A DNA stretch of 64,000 bases, taken from assembly GCF_035953295.1 (NCBI RefSeq), contig NZ_CP108370.1, positions 4,989,001 to 5,053,000 of the forward strand, given 5' to 3'. The first letter of the stretch is position 1, and every line of letters starts with the position of its first letter. This document shows, one piece after another, positions 27,449 to 55,852 of the stretch. The translations under genes and the position numbers were made by a program. Under the pieces are notes generated by a model, which saw only the letters and a program-made list of their open reading frames with translations, was not told the origin of the DNA and did no database searches. The stretch comes from Streptomyces sp. NBC_01335. GTDB lineage: Bacteria > Actinomycetota > Actinomycetes > Streptomycetales > Streptomycetaceae.

Positions 27449-27797
27449 GGACCCGGGGGTGGCGGCCCCGGGTCACCCCGCAGGGGGCGTGGGGGCCGCG
27501 CCACATCACGTCCCCTTTCCGGGCGTTCCCGGCATGTTTCCCCCGGATGTCTCCCCGATGTCCACCGATGTCCCCATCGAGGGCCCCGGAGCCCGCCGAG
27601 GCCGACAGGGGCCCCTCGGGAGGGACATCCGTCCGAAATATGTCGGAGTGTCAGGTGGCGCGATGTGACCAGAACTCTTCACGACGATCCGATAACGACC
27701 GGTGAACGTGTCTTTAACTGACATCTACGCGCGTTACGATCGCGGCGAACCCAGCGCCGGAGTGGCGCTTTCGGTCAGGTTTTTAAGGAGCCTCCCA
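27449..27797. other. Intergenic region: terminator, short repeats and the bmp promoter
   Basis: ACCCGGGG (27451-27458) pairs with 27466-27473 just after the hydrolase. GATGTC is repeated three times around 27546-27570. The right end holds the promoter and operator of the nucleoside-binding protein. Confidence 0.6.
27724..27737. promoter_or_regulatory. Nucleoside-regulon operator, copy 1 (bmp promoter)
   Basis: TCTACGCGCGTTAC, 11 of 14 matches to the consensus TCTACGCGCGTAGA. It lies between a possible -35 (TTTAAC, 27713-27718) and -10 (TACGAT, 27735-27740), so bound repressor would block RNA polymerase. Confidence 0.65.
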
Positions 27798-28865
27798 GTG
27801 CGCCGGATCACCAGGATCGCCACCGTGGGCATTGCGTCCGCGGCTTTCGCGCTGTCCGTCACGGCTTGTGGCGGTAAGACGTCTTCCGAGGGCAGCAGCA
27901 GCAACAGCAGCAGCGGCTCGTCCTCCAGCGGCAAGACCGCCCTCGCCTACGACATCGGTGGCCGCGGCGACCAGTCGTTCAACGACGCCGCCTACGCGGG
28001 CCTGGAGAAGGCCACGAAGGAGCTCGGCTTCAAGGGCGTCGAGGCGGAGCCCTCCGAGGGCGAGAGCGACGCGGACAAGATCCAGCGCCTGACCGAGCTC
28101 GCGCGCGGCGGCAACAACCCGGTCATCGGTGTCGGCTTCGTCTACGCCAGCGCCATCGCCGAGGTCGCCGCGAAGTTCCCGAACACCACGTTCGGGATCA
28201 TCGACGACAGCTCGAAGCCCACCAAGAACACCGCGAACCTGGTCTTCAGCGAGGAGCAGGGCTCCTACCTCGCCGGCGTCGCCGCCGCCAAGGTCACCAA
28301 GACGAACACGGTCGGCTTCATCGGTGGTGTCGAGACCCCGCTGATCAAGAAGTTCGAGGCCGGTTACGTCCAGGGCGTCAAGGACACCAAGGCGGGCGTC
28401 AACGTCAAGGTCCAGTACCTGACCCAGCCGCCGGACTTCACGGGCTTCTCCAAGCCGGACCTCGGCAAGGCCGCCGCGCAGGGCCAGCTCGACGCCGGCG
28501 CCGACGTGATCTACTCCGCCGCCGGCCTCGCCGGTTCCGGCGCGATCGAGGTCACCTCCAAGGCCAAGAAGTGGTCCATCGGCGTCGACTCCGACCAGTA
28601 CAACCAGGCCGGCCTCGCCGACTACAAGGACTACATCCTGACGTCGGTCACCAAGGACGTCGCCGACTCGGTCTTCAACCTGATCAAGTCGGTCAAGGAC
28701 GGCAAGCCGGAGACCGGTGAGATCCGCGCCGGCCTGGACACGGACGGCGTGGGCCTCGCGGCCTCCAACCCGGCCTTCACCAAGATGACGGACGTCACCG
28801 CGGCGATCGAGAAGGCCAAGGCCGACATCATCGCCGGCAAGATCACGGTCAAGACCACCCCGTAA
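27798..28865 (+). CDS. BMP-family nucleoside-binding lipoprotein
   Basis: 355 residues from GTG 27798 with AAGGAG at 27785-27790. The signal peptide ends in the lipobox LSVTAC, followed by a Ser/Gly/Asn linker. The PBP1-Med fold follows: ALAYDIGGRGDQSFNDAAY at its start, then FVYASAIAEVAAKFPNTTF, FIGGVETPLIKKFEAGYVQG, and WSIGVDSDQYNQAG in the hinge region. Relatives (BmpA/PnrA, BmpA of lactococci) bind purine or other nucleosides and feed the ABC transporter encoded next. A strong hairpin follows, so it is probably made in excess of the membrane parts. Confidence 0.93.
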   Translation: MRRITRIATVGIASAAFALSVTACGGKTSSEGSSSNSSSGSSSSGKTALAYDIGGRGDQSFNDAAYAGLEKATKELGFKGVEAEPSEGESDADKIQRLTELARGGNNPVIGVGFVYASAIAEVAAKFPNTTFGIIDDSSKPTKNTANLVFSEEQGSYLAGVAAAKVTKTNTVGFIGGVETPLIKKFEAGYVQGVKDTKAGVNVKVQYLTQPPDFTGFSKPDLGKAAAQGQLDAGADVIYSAAGLAGSGAIEVTSKAKKWSIGVDSDQYNQAGLADYKDYILTSVTKDVADSVFNLIKSVKDGKPETGEIRAGLDTDGVGLAASNPAFTKMTDVTAAIEKAKADIIAGKITVKTTP

Positions 28866-28872
28866 CGACCAC

Positions 28873-28911
28873 ACCCGCGAGGGGCGGCGGACCCCGCCGC
28901 CCCTCGCGGGT
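28873..28911 (+). terminator. Strong hairpin after bmp (terminator or attenuator)
   Basis: 18-bp perfect stem (28873-28890 with 28894-28911), 3-nt loop, 7 bp after the stop. It likely lowers expression of the downstream transporter genes relative to the binding protein. Confidence 0.75.
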
Positions 28912-28988
28912 GCGCTCGTCGGCACTCGGGCGTGCCCTTCGCGGGTGCGCTCGTCAGCGCCCGGTGTGCCCGTCACGGGTGCGCCCGT
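28904..28988. repeat. Three imperfect direct repeats (TCGCGGGTGCGCTCGT)
   Basis: Copies at 28904-28919, 28939-28954 and 28973-28988, spaced 35 and 34 bp. The first two are identical, the third has two changes. The first overlaps the hairpin's right arm. Confidence 0.75.
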
Positions 28989-54865: not shown

Positions 54866-54990
54866 GGGGGGTCCGCCTTTCGGGGATGACGGGGTGCGGG
54901 TGGTGCGGGTGGTGCCGGTGGTGCGGGGAGCGCCGCGGGCGCGGGGGCGGCGGCCCGGCTCTCACGCGGGGCCGCCGCCGGATCCGCCGG

Positions 54991-55815
54991 TCAGATGCGT
55001 TCGAGCACGCGGGCCAGCAGGTCGCCCATGCGCGCGGCCGAGTCGCGGCCGGCCTGGAGGACCTCCTCGTGGTTGAGCGGTTCGCCGGACAGGCCCGCGG
55101 CGAGGTTGGTCACCAGCGAGATGCCGAGCACCTCCGCACCCGCCTCGCGCGCGGCGATGGCCTCCAGCACGGTGGACATGCCGACCAGGTCGCCGCCCAT
55201 CGCGCGGACCATGCCGATCTCGGCCGGGGTCTCGTAGTGCGGGCCGGGGAACTGCACGTACACGCCCTCTTCCAGCGAGGGGTCGATCTCCTGGCAGAGC
55301 GCCCGCAGCCGGGGGGAGTACAGGTCGGTCAGGTCGACGAAGTTGGCGCCGATGATCGGGGAGGTGGCGGTGAGGTTGATGTGGTCGCCGATCAGCACCG
55401 GCTGGCCGGGGCGCATGCCCTCGCGCAGACCGCCGCAGCCGTTGGTCAGCACGACGGTCCGGCAGCCCGCGGCCACGGCCGTACGGACGCCGTGGGCGAC
55501 GGCGGCGACGCCGCGTCCCTCGTAGAAGTGGGTGCGGCCGAGGAAGACCAGCACGCGCTTCTCGCCGATGCGGTAGGAGCGGACCGTGCCGCCGTGCCCC
55601 TCCACCGCCGGGGGCGGGAATCCGGGCAGGTGCGTCACCGGGAACTCGGCGTCCGGGGTACCGAGCGCATCGCCCGCGGGTCCCCAGCCGGACCCCATCA
55701 CGAGGACCACGTCGTGGGTCTCGGCGCCGGTCAGCTCCCGCAGCCTGGCGGCGGCCTCGGCGGCCACCGCGTGCGGGTCGTCCTGGATGTTGTCCGGAAT
55801 AACAGATGCGTTCAC
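54991..55815 (-). CDS. punA: Purine nucleoside phosphorylase (trimeric class)
   Basis: 274 residues from GTG 55815. It splits inosine and guanosine (and deoxy forms) with phosphate. Family motifs: VVLVMGSGWG (phosphate Ser), LGRTHFYEGRG, LTNGCGGL, YVQFPGPHYETPAEI and VGMSTVLEAIAAREAG. TACCCT on the minus strand ends seven bases before the GTG, so the mRNA appears leaderless. The regulon operator lies 24 bp upstream. Confidence 0.95.
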   Translation of the reverse strand: MNASVIPDNIQDDPHAVAAEAAARLRELTGAETHDVVLVMGSGWGPAGDALGTPDAEFPVTHLPGFPPPAVEGHGGTVRSYRIGEKRVLVFLGRTHFYEGRGVAAVAHGVRTAVAAGCRTVVLTNGCGGLREGMRPGQPVLIGDHINLTATSPIIGANFVDLTDLYSPRLRALCQEIDPSLEEGVYVQFPGPHYETPAEIGMVRAMGGDLVGMSTVLEAIAAREAGAEVLGISLVTNLAAGLSGEPLNHEEVLQAGRDSAARMGDLLARVLERI

Positions 55816-55838
55816 CGGACGAGGGTAACCGCTGATTC

Positions 55839-55852
55839 CCTACGCGCGTAGA
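55839..55852. promoter_or_regulatory. Nucleoside-regulon operator, copy 5 (punA promoter)
   Basis: CCTACGCGCGTAGA, 13 of 14 matches, upstream of the punA -10. Confidence 0.75.

Follow-up and report, generated by a model that had tools for sequence, protein, structure and literature searches.

Five units for nucleoside uptake and breakdown, scattered over a 64,000-nucleotide stretch of the genome of Streptomyces sp. NBC_01335 (C1:4989001-5053000, in a genome of 8.36 Mb; hereafter the window), carry the 14-bp palindrome TCTACGCGCGTAGA upstream of bmp, deoA, add, deoC and punA. The palindrome is strongly enriched in the Streptomycetaceae, where it stands mostly at genes for nucleic-acid scavenging, and it is conserved at fixed places in relatives of this strain. 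We consider it probable, at roughly 80%, that these sites are operators of one regulator of nucleic-acid scavenging that is conserved in this family. Taken together, the sequence comparisons indicate that the family-wide set of putative operators is real, and that it is wider than the original prediction, an earlier reading of the window from its letters, had proposed.

The sites in the window and their recurrence at fixed places

Scanning the window for matches to TCTACGCGCGTAGA with at most three mismatches returned exactly the five sites that had been predicted, four with one mismatch each and one with three, and none at an unrelated gene; Pfam likewise bears out that the units encode nucleoside uptake or breakdown, with matches for Bmp, thymidine phosphorylase, cytidine deaminase, adenosine deaminase, DeoC and purine nucleoside phosphorylase. 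Measured from the end of the site to the probable start codon, the operator-like sites lie 60 bp before bmp (TCTACGCGCGTTAC, 27724..27737, plus strand; counted by hand), 74 bp before deoA (TCTATGCGCGTAGA, 33664..33677, plus strand), 15 bp before add (TCTACGCGCGTAGG, 40866..40879, plus strand), 18 bp before deoC (GCTACGCGCGTAGA when read with the gene, 52285..52298, minus strand; counted by hand) and 23 bp before punA (again TCTACGCGCGTAGG when read with the gene, 55839..55852, minus strand). The site with three mismatches is that of bmp. At this threshold a total of five is near chance (the mean for the window is 3.11, and 18 of 100 shuffles reach 5), so that the bmp site needs other support; at one mismatch, about 0.007 places are expected in the window versus the four observed. 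The genome as a whole contains six places with at most one mismatch, four of which are inside the window, and a uniform draw would put at least four of the six there with a probability of about 5e-8. With up to two mismatches there are 17 places in the genome versus 2 for the reversed pattern, and the exact pattern CTACGNNCGTAG occurs at three places genome-wide, all of them in the window.

Evidence that is independent of motif selection comes from a secreted nuclease with a GmrSD_C domain, here called the HNH nuclease, which was sought by its protein sequence. Homologues with E<=1e-20 occur in 46 of the 61 family genomes, and the best 30 places were read. Within a 410-base stretch around the start, 26 of these 30 have a site with at most two mismatches, where the chance of a site per gene is about 0.001; because the genomes are related, these figures do not amount to a literal probability. 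The remaining four homologues have five or more mismatches. In 14 of the 30 the site lies within the first codons, mostly starting 10 bases into the gene (10 to 37, according to the start chosen), and it reads TAC GCG CGT each time, i.e., Tyr-Ala-Arg; among 17 genes of the window, CGT accounts for 9% of the Arg codons and GCG for 36% of the Ala codons. Another 12 have the site upstream, as TCTACCCGCATAGA and similar sequences, mostly in another form than the in-coding sites. In-coding sites are found at secreted nucleases that are unrelated to each other, namely many HNH nucleases, two Endonuclease I genes and two RNase Sa-type genes, and in the RNase genes the site starts 11 bases into the gene.

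The nucleoside cluster itself was compared in stretches of eight relatives, a ninth contributing a single bmp locus. Since these stretches were chosen by places with at most one mismatch, which include the sites at add, deoC, punA, the ABC transporter ATPase and some of those at deoA, only bmp and the negative controls are free of selection. At bmp, a site with at most three mismatches, in the TCTACGCGCGTTAC/TTAA form or closer, is present in 9 of the 10 alignment rows and at 8/8 loci. The relatives also carry a site at add (8/8), deoC (8/8) and punA (7/7), and 7/8 have one with at most two mismatches at the ABC ATPase, where the window has a degenerate version (five mismatches at best). The neighbouring genes that served as controls had no site at four or fewer mismatches: cdd 0/7, pmm 0/7, deoR 0/7, the two permeases 0/8 each and the sigma gene 0/6.

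Spread in the Streptomycetaceae and the wider target set

Enrichment was measured at up to one mismatch against the reversed pattern, with the family control counts summed by hand. We found 340 places versus 15 control places in 41 Streptomyces genomes, with at least three in every genome, and 384 versus 7 in 61 family genomes from 17 genera, all 61 of which have at least one; for the 51 Streptomycetaceae genomes outside Streptomyces (16 genera), the counts are 298 versus 5. It should be noted that an independent-base estimate for the genome of the window gives 0.9 places at one mismatch and about 22 at two, and single places in a genome of this size therefore prove nothing. The weakest family genomes, G195 (the sole genome drawn of its genus) and G207, have one place each, and G207 has one control place as well.

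A sample of the class comprised 148 genomes, 137 of them outside Streptomyces, with no other Streptomycetaceae genus included. Outside the genus, matches were present in 9 of the 137 genomes, at 11 places versus about 43 for the reversed pattern, which is the background level. Stretches of 14-20 kb around the matches in five of these genomes (G127, G144, G155, G170 and, for one of its two places, G043) contain no panel gene except a 35% ABC ATPase (L232), and the 3-kb loci from the other four (G052, G057, G083 and G174) contain no panel gene near the site. Matches outside the Streptomycetaceae are treated here as chance. One of them, a 1-mismatch site in G127, from another family (L228:9060), lies beside genes that by eye are IMP-dehydrogenase-like, QueE-like and sulfatase-like; the neighbourhood is possibly a nucleoside-type biosynthetic cluster, or the match is due to chance.

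The genes downstream of the sites, which the original prediction had proposed to list, are mostly nucleic-acid-scavenging targets in both Streptomyces and the family. The predicted regulon of nucleoside uptake and breakdown turns out to have been drawn too narrowly, since genes for secreted nucleases, nucleotidases and phosphatases, for purine and cytosine permeases and for reductive pyrimidine catabolism also bear the sites, as does purSQL. Outside the window, sites are located at genes for a purine permease of the Xan_ur_permease family (L001), a secreted 5'-nucleotidase (L010), an ExeM-like protein with a lamin-tail domain (L015), Endonuclease I (L007), the HNH nuclease (L008), a cytosine/purine permease (L076), an EEP-family secreted protein (L069) and a second adenosine deaminase (L078), and purSQL has its site between lsr2 and purS (L002 and many others, 14 distinct loci). 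Another site lies about 30 bp before a gene for a carbon-nitrogen hydrolase resembling beta-ureidopropionase (L054); aminotransferase-like genes follow the hydrolase gene, in L202 together with a dihydropyrimidinase-like gene (by eye). Further site-bearing genes encode acid phosphatase B, an RNase Sa-type ribonuclease, a CpdB-like 2',3'-cyclic-nucleotide phosphodiesterase, PurN, xanthine dehydrogenase, a phosphoesterase, an M23 peptidase, a GDSL lipase and a GH25 muramidase. Several of these were seen in few genomes: CpdB, purN (G200), xanthine dehydrogenase and the phosphoesterase in one each, the M23 peptidase, Endonuclease I and the RNase in two each, and the lipase in three. A LysR gene with a 1-mismatch site was likewise found in one genome (L359, G200). 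In the loci, 114 of the 143 rows with at most one mismatch, which represent 132 distinct places, fall at eleven panel gene families and 29 elsewhere; at up to two mismatches, 266 distinct places are assigned and 55 unassigned (27 at one mismatch and 28 at two).

Some details of the rarer targets may be added. The xanthine dehydrogenase site, with two mismatches, precedes the molybdenum-subunit gene in a single genome (L208, G005). The lipase genes code for secreted GDSL/SGNH proteins and have 2-mismatch sites in three Streptomyces genomes (L012, L188 and L214), and the M23 peptidases, which are secreted as well, have sites with two and one mismatches in two genera (L211 and L345). A secreted protein of about 480-550 aa has a site in more than one genus (L079, L153, L154 and L155); its ABC_transp_aux and InhA-like matches are below threshold, and its one PDB match, to a galactosidase domain, is weak.

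As for the genes of the window, bmp (27798..28865, plus strand; PF02608) encodes a nucleoside-type ABC substrate-binding protein with a likely GTG start at 27798. In another genome, TCTACGCGCGTTAA occurs twice, at sites 1.3 kb from each other, at apparent tandem copies of this gene (G009:C1:6155328 and 6156634). The ABC transporter ATPase and two permeases (29372..33200, plus strand) were named from position and sequence, and the true start of the ATPase gene is probably upstream of 29372. They are followed by cdd, for cytidine deaminase (33197..33598, plus strand; Pfam PF00383), and deoA, for thymidine/pyrimidine nucleoside phosphorylase (33752..35029, plus strand; Pfam), and farther on by add, for adenosine deaminase (40895..42049, plus strand; Pfam). 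On the minus strand are deoC (51319..52266; likely ATG at 52266), assigned by Pfam to the DeoC/LacD-family aldolases and probably encoding deoxyribose-phosphate aldolase, and punA, for purine nucleoside phosphorylase (54991..55815; Pfam PF01048). Downstream of punA is a PGM/PMM-type gene without a site of its own (pmm, 53213..54865, minus strand; Pfam), whose product is probably phosphopentomutase. The intervening genes include a sigma-70-type gene with a SnoaL-like domain (Pfam), a second sigma-70-type gene, and MFS transporter, LysR, response-regulator and uridine-kinase-like genes, at none of which the window scan detected a site at up to three mismatches.

A putative repressor and the rival readings

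The palindrome is most conserved in CTACG..CGTAG and would be the operator of one DNA-binding protein, presumably a dimer given that the site is palindromic. This regulator most likely represses, since sites just before the start codon or inside the first codons suit a block at the promoter or on exit from it better than an activator. Its regulon would run from extracellular digestion (secreted DNases and RNase, nucleotidases and phosphatases) through the uptake of nucleosides and nucleobases to breakdown (deaminases, phosphorylases, DeoC and the pyrimidine-degradation operon), and would in part take in purine synthesis (purSQL); the repressor may be released by a signal tied to the nucleobase, nucleoside or nucleotide state. 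Apart from its extent, the scattered regulon under one regulator not obviously encoded nearby, as originally proposed, is strongly supported by these data. For the signal, a nucleoside or a pentose phosphate had been suggested; one related to nucleobases, nucleosides or nucleotides would fit better, and a pentose phosphate less well because of the wider target set.

Which change in that state would release the repressor is a closer question. We slightly favour release on shortage of nucleobases or nucleotides, at a little better than even, since the purS sites point to a purine-shortage signal, while the breakdown genes would equally suit induction. A regulator that is inducible by nucleosides, following the logic of CytR/DeoR instead of the nucleobase-shortage logic of PurR, is a serious contender that we place somewhat short of even odds: most targets are uptake or breakdown genes, but the site at purSQL in many genomes, and at purN in one, is hard to reconcile with substrate induction. 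A broader reading, which appears doubtful to us, is that one family-specific repressor controls a lyse-and-digest programme and also holds down the GH25 muramidase, the M23 peptidase, the GDSL lipase and the phosphoesterase. If so, Streptomyces would switch on cell lysis and nucleic-acid consumption together, and the operators would shift position, lying now upstream and now within the signal-peptide codons of the secreted nuclease genes.

Several observations weigh against a single operator set for nucleic-acid scavenging. The HNH homologues of G200 and of three g85 genomes have no site, and a deoA site is present in only 2/7 relatives. By number, the exact core CTACGNNCGTAG is not enriched in the genome of the window (3 versus 5 for the reversed control), the enrichment at two mismatches is modest (17 versus 2, 25 versus 7, 25 versus 11 and 15 versus 12), and genomes with one or two matches, such as G195, G207 and some of g85, are weak cases. 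Most loci in the target tallies were fetched because they bear the motif, so that these tallies characterise the regulon without being a test of it; moreover, with 55 unassigned places and a panel that was enlarged by families first noticed at sites, some matches are due to chance. It is also awkward to have purSQL together with catabolic genes under one signal. Finally, the search for a regulator gene bearing the motif in its own promoter, a route suggested in the original prediction, brought up a MarR gene and an IclR gene at the sites that were read, neither of which could be upheld. The DeoR-family gene of the window has no site.

This last gene (58400..59377, plus strand; DeoR/AgaR-like, Pfam DeoR-type), 2.5 kb from punA, is an unlikely candidate for the regulator, in which role it would sense deoxyribose or ribose phosphate. 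It is near four sites, has a DeoR C-terminal sensor domain and is kept near punA in the relatives read. However, no site precedes it in the window or in 7/7 relatives, and 12 genomes from other families, in which the motif does not rise above background, have orthologues at 46-70%. At least four of these 12 orthologues adjoin apparent sugar-type ABC components (by eye; L388, L389 and L394 among the relatives), a context suggesting that it is a sugar regulator by origin, and its best NCBIfam match is AgaR, below the cutoff.

Quite unlikely, too, is a regulator role for the MarR-family gene that is divergent to the GH25 muramidase gene and would repress itself via the intervening site. Of the 80 named Streptomyces loci that the search retained, 50 have an upstream site with at most two mismatches, as do 12/28 genus orthologues, and most of the GVGKATMSRQLRALE region is invariant in a 20-row alignment. 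Against this, 15 of the 61 family genomes have no MarR orthologue at E<=1e-25 (at most about 60 first-look candidates were scored per genome), whereas all 61 have at least one site, and four genomes that lack it (G200, G220, G187 and G236) between them keep sites at add, punA and bmp and at the genes for the purine permease, ExeM, RNase and beta-ureidopropionase. Moreover, within 1.5 kb, a site with at most three mismatches is present in 13/20 loci with GH25 versus 0/8 without it. The GH25 muramidase is therefore the likelier target, as the site goes with its gene. As a separate observation, a stretch resembling CCGTTGGTCTACGCCTGCGAAATACTG that lies upstream of the MarR gene hardly varies across many Streptomyces (L124-L149), even though in-frame stops follow it in some, and so looks like a conserved noncoding element.

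The IclR gene (L009/L207) was not upheld as a candidate. Its site is kept, at up to two mismatches, in 2/16 anchored loci, with 14/30 loci unanchored, and it was seen in only three genomes, those of the window, G078 and G005 (L207). The protein is present in 59/61 family genomes, and G202, which has eight places, is without it.

That the repeats reflect chance or a general promoter feature of GC-rich genomes is highly improbable: the counts at two or three mismatches are near chance, but the strong 1-mismatch enrichment, the conservation at fixed places, the clean neighbour controls and the background level in the 137 class genomes outside the genus argue against this reading, which the HNH protein search already contradicts.

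An operator set for nucleic-acid scavenging would put the digestion of nucleic acids outside the cell under the same control as uptake, catabolism and purine synthesis, and the operator can serve directly in the search for the regulator of nucleic-acid feeding in Streptomyces. Such control would be relevant to the way in which these bacteria reuse lysed cells, whether their own or those of others, and to the precursor supply for nucleoside antibiotics. In-coding operators that relocate between genera would, in addition, be a useful test case of regulatory turnover.

Comparison with known systems

A literature search with the letters of the 14-mer and with the core TACGCGCGTA yielded no Streptomyces paper on the motif, most subscription papers and supplementary files being out of its reach; a topical search listed no paper on this motif in Streptomyces either, and it may be in print elsewhere. 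To our knowledge, the motifs of BldD, DasR, MtrA and Rex do not match it. SCO4914 of S. coelicolor, which we take to be deoC, has been touched on in other work. According to passages of that study, its promoter gave a WblC ChIP signal (PMC7157823). The available passages of an S. coelicolor iModulon paper describe a purine iModulon and do not contain this motif (PMC11538686), and those of a survey of IclR motifs contain nothing on it (PMC8222616). The adenosine deaminase SCO4901 and the putative nucleases SCO1182, SCO3151 and SCO6341 are stated, in part of another paper, to be more abundant in 'SC' than in 'SL' (PMC7244524). These labels presumably denote S. coelicolor and S. lividans; the co-abundance fits co-regulation and proves nothing.

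In E. coli, CytR and DeoR place deoC, deoA, punA, add, cdd and transporter-type genes under common control. Unlike that system, the genes here form separate units and not one deo operon, and extracellular nucleic-acid digestion is added. The E. coli DeoR operator TGTTAGAATTCTAACA is unlike the present motif, and the PurR operators of E. coli and B. subtilis also differ from it in sequence. No PurR-like protein is linked to the motif, and none was searched for.

Within Streptomyces, the LacI regulators GvmR and ScnR1 recognise the motif RTCATWCGYATGAY / RTSATACGHATRAY, as given in part of the source (PMC12292694). Theirs, like ours, are 14-bp palindromes, linked in their case to a purine nucleoside product, but the motif differs from the one described here. 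SCO3205 of S. coelicolor, for which an excerpt gives the operator TTnAAnnnTCAA (PMC3737563), is an example of a MarR-family pseudopalindrome in an actinomycete, and its sequence does not match our motif. LacI-type regulators of nucleoside genes, namely UriR, AdeR and HpxR, occur elsewhere, and the LacI-type PurR of E. coli has a role in purine-gene control, both according to passages of one paper (PMC4052901). Like the PurR regulons, the set described here has a single palindromic operator at numerous scattered purine genes, those for synthesis and permeases among them, and the PurR-type trait of a site at de novo purine genes is present (lsr2/purS, and purN in G200). Unlike the PurR regulons, it is dominated by nucleases, nucleotidases, deo genes and pyrimidine breakdown.

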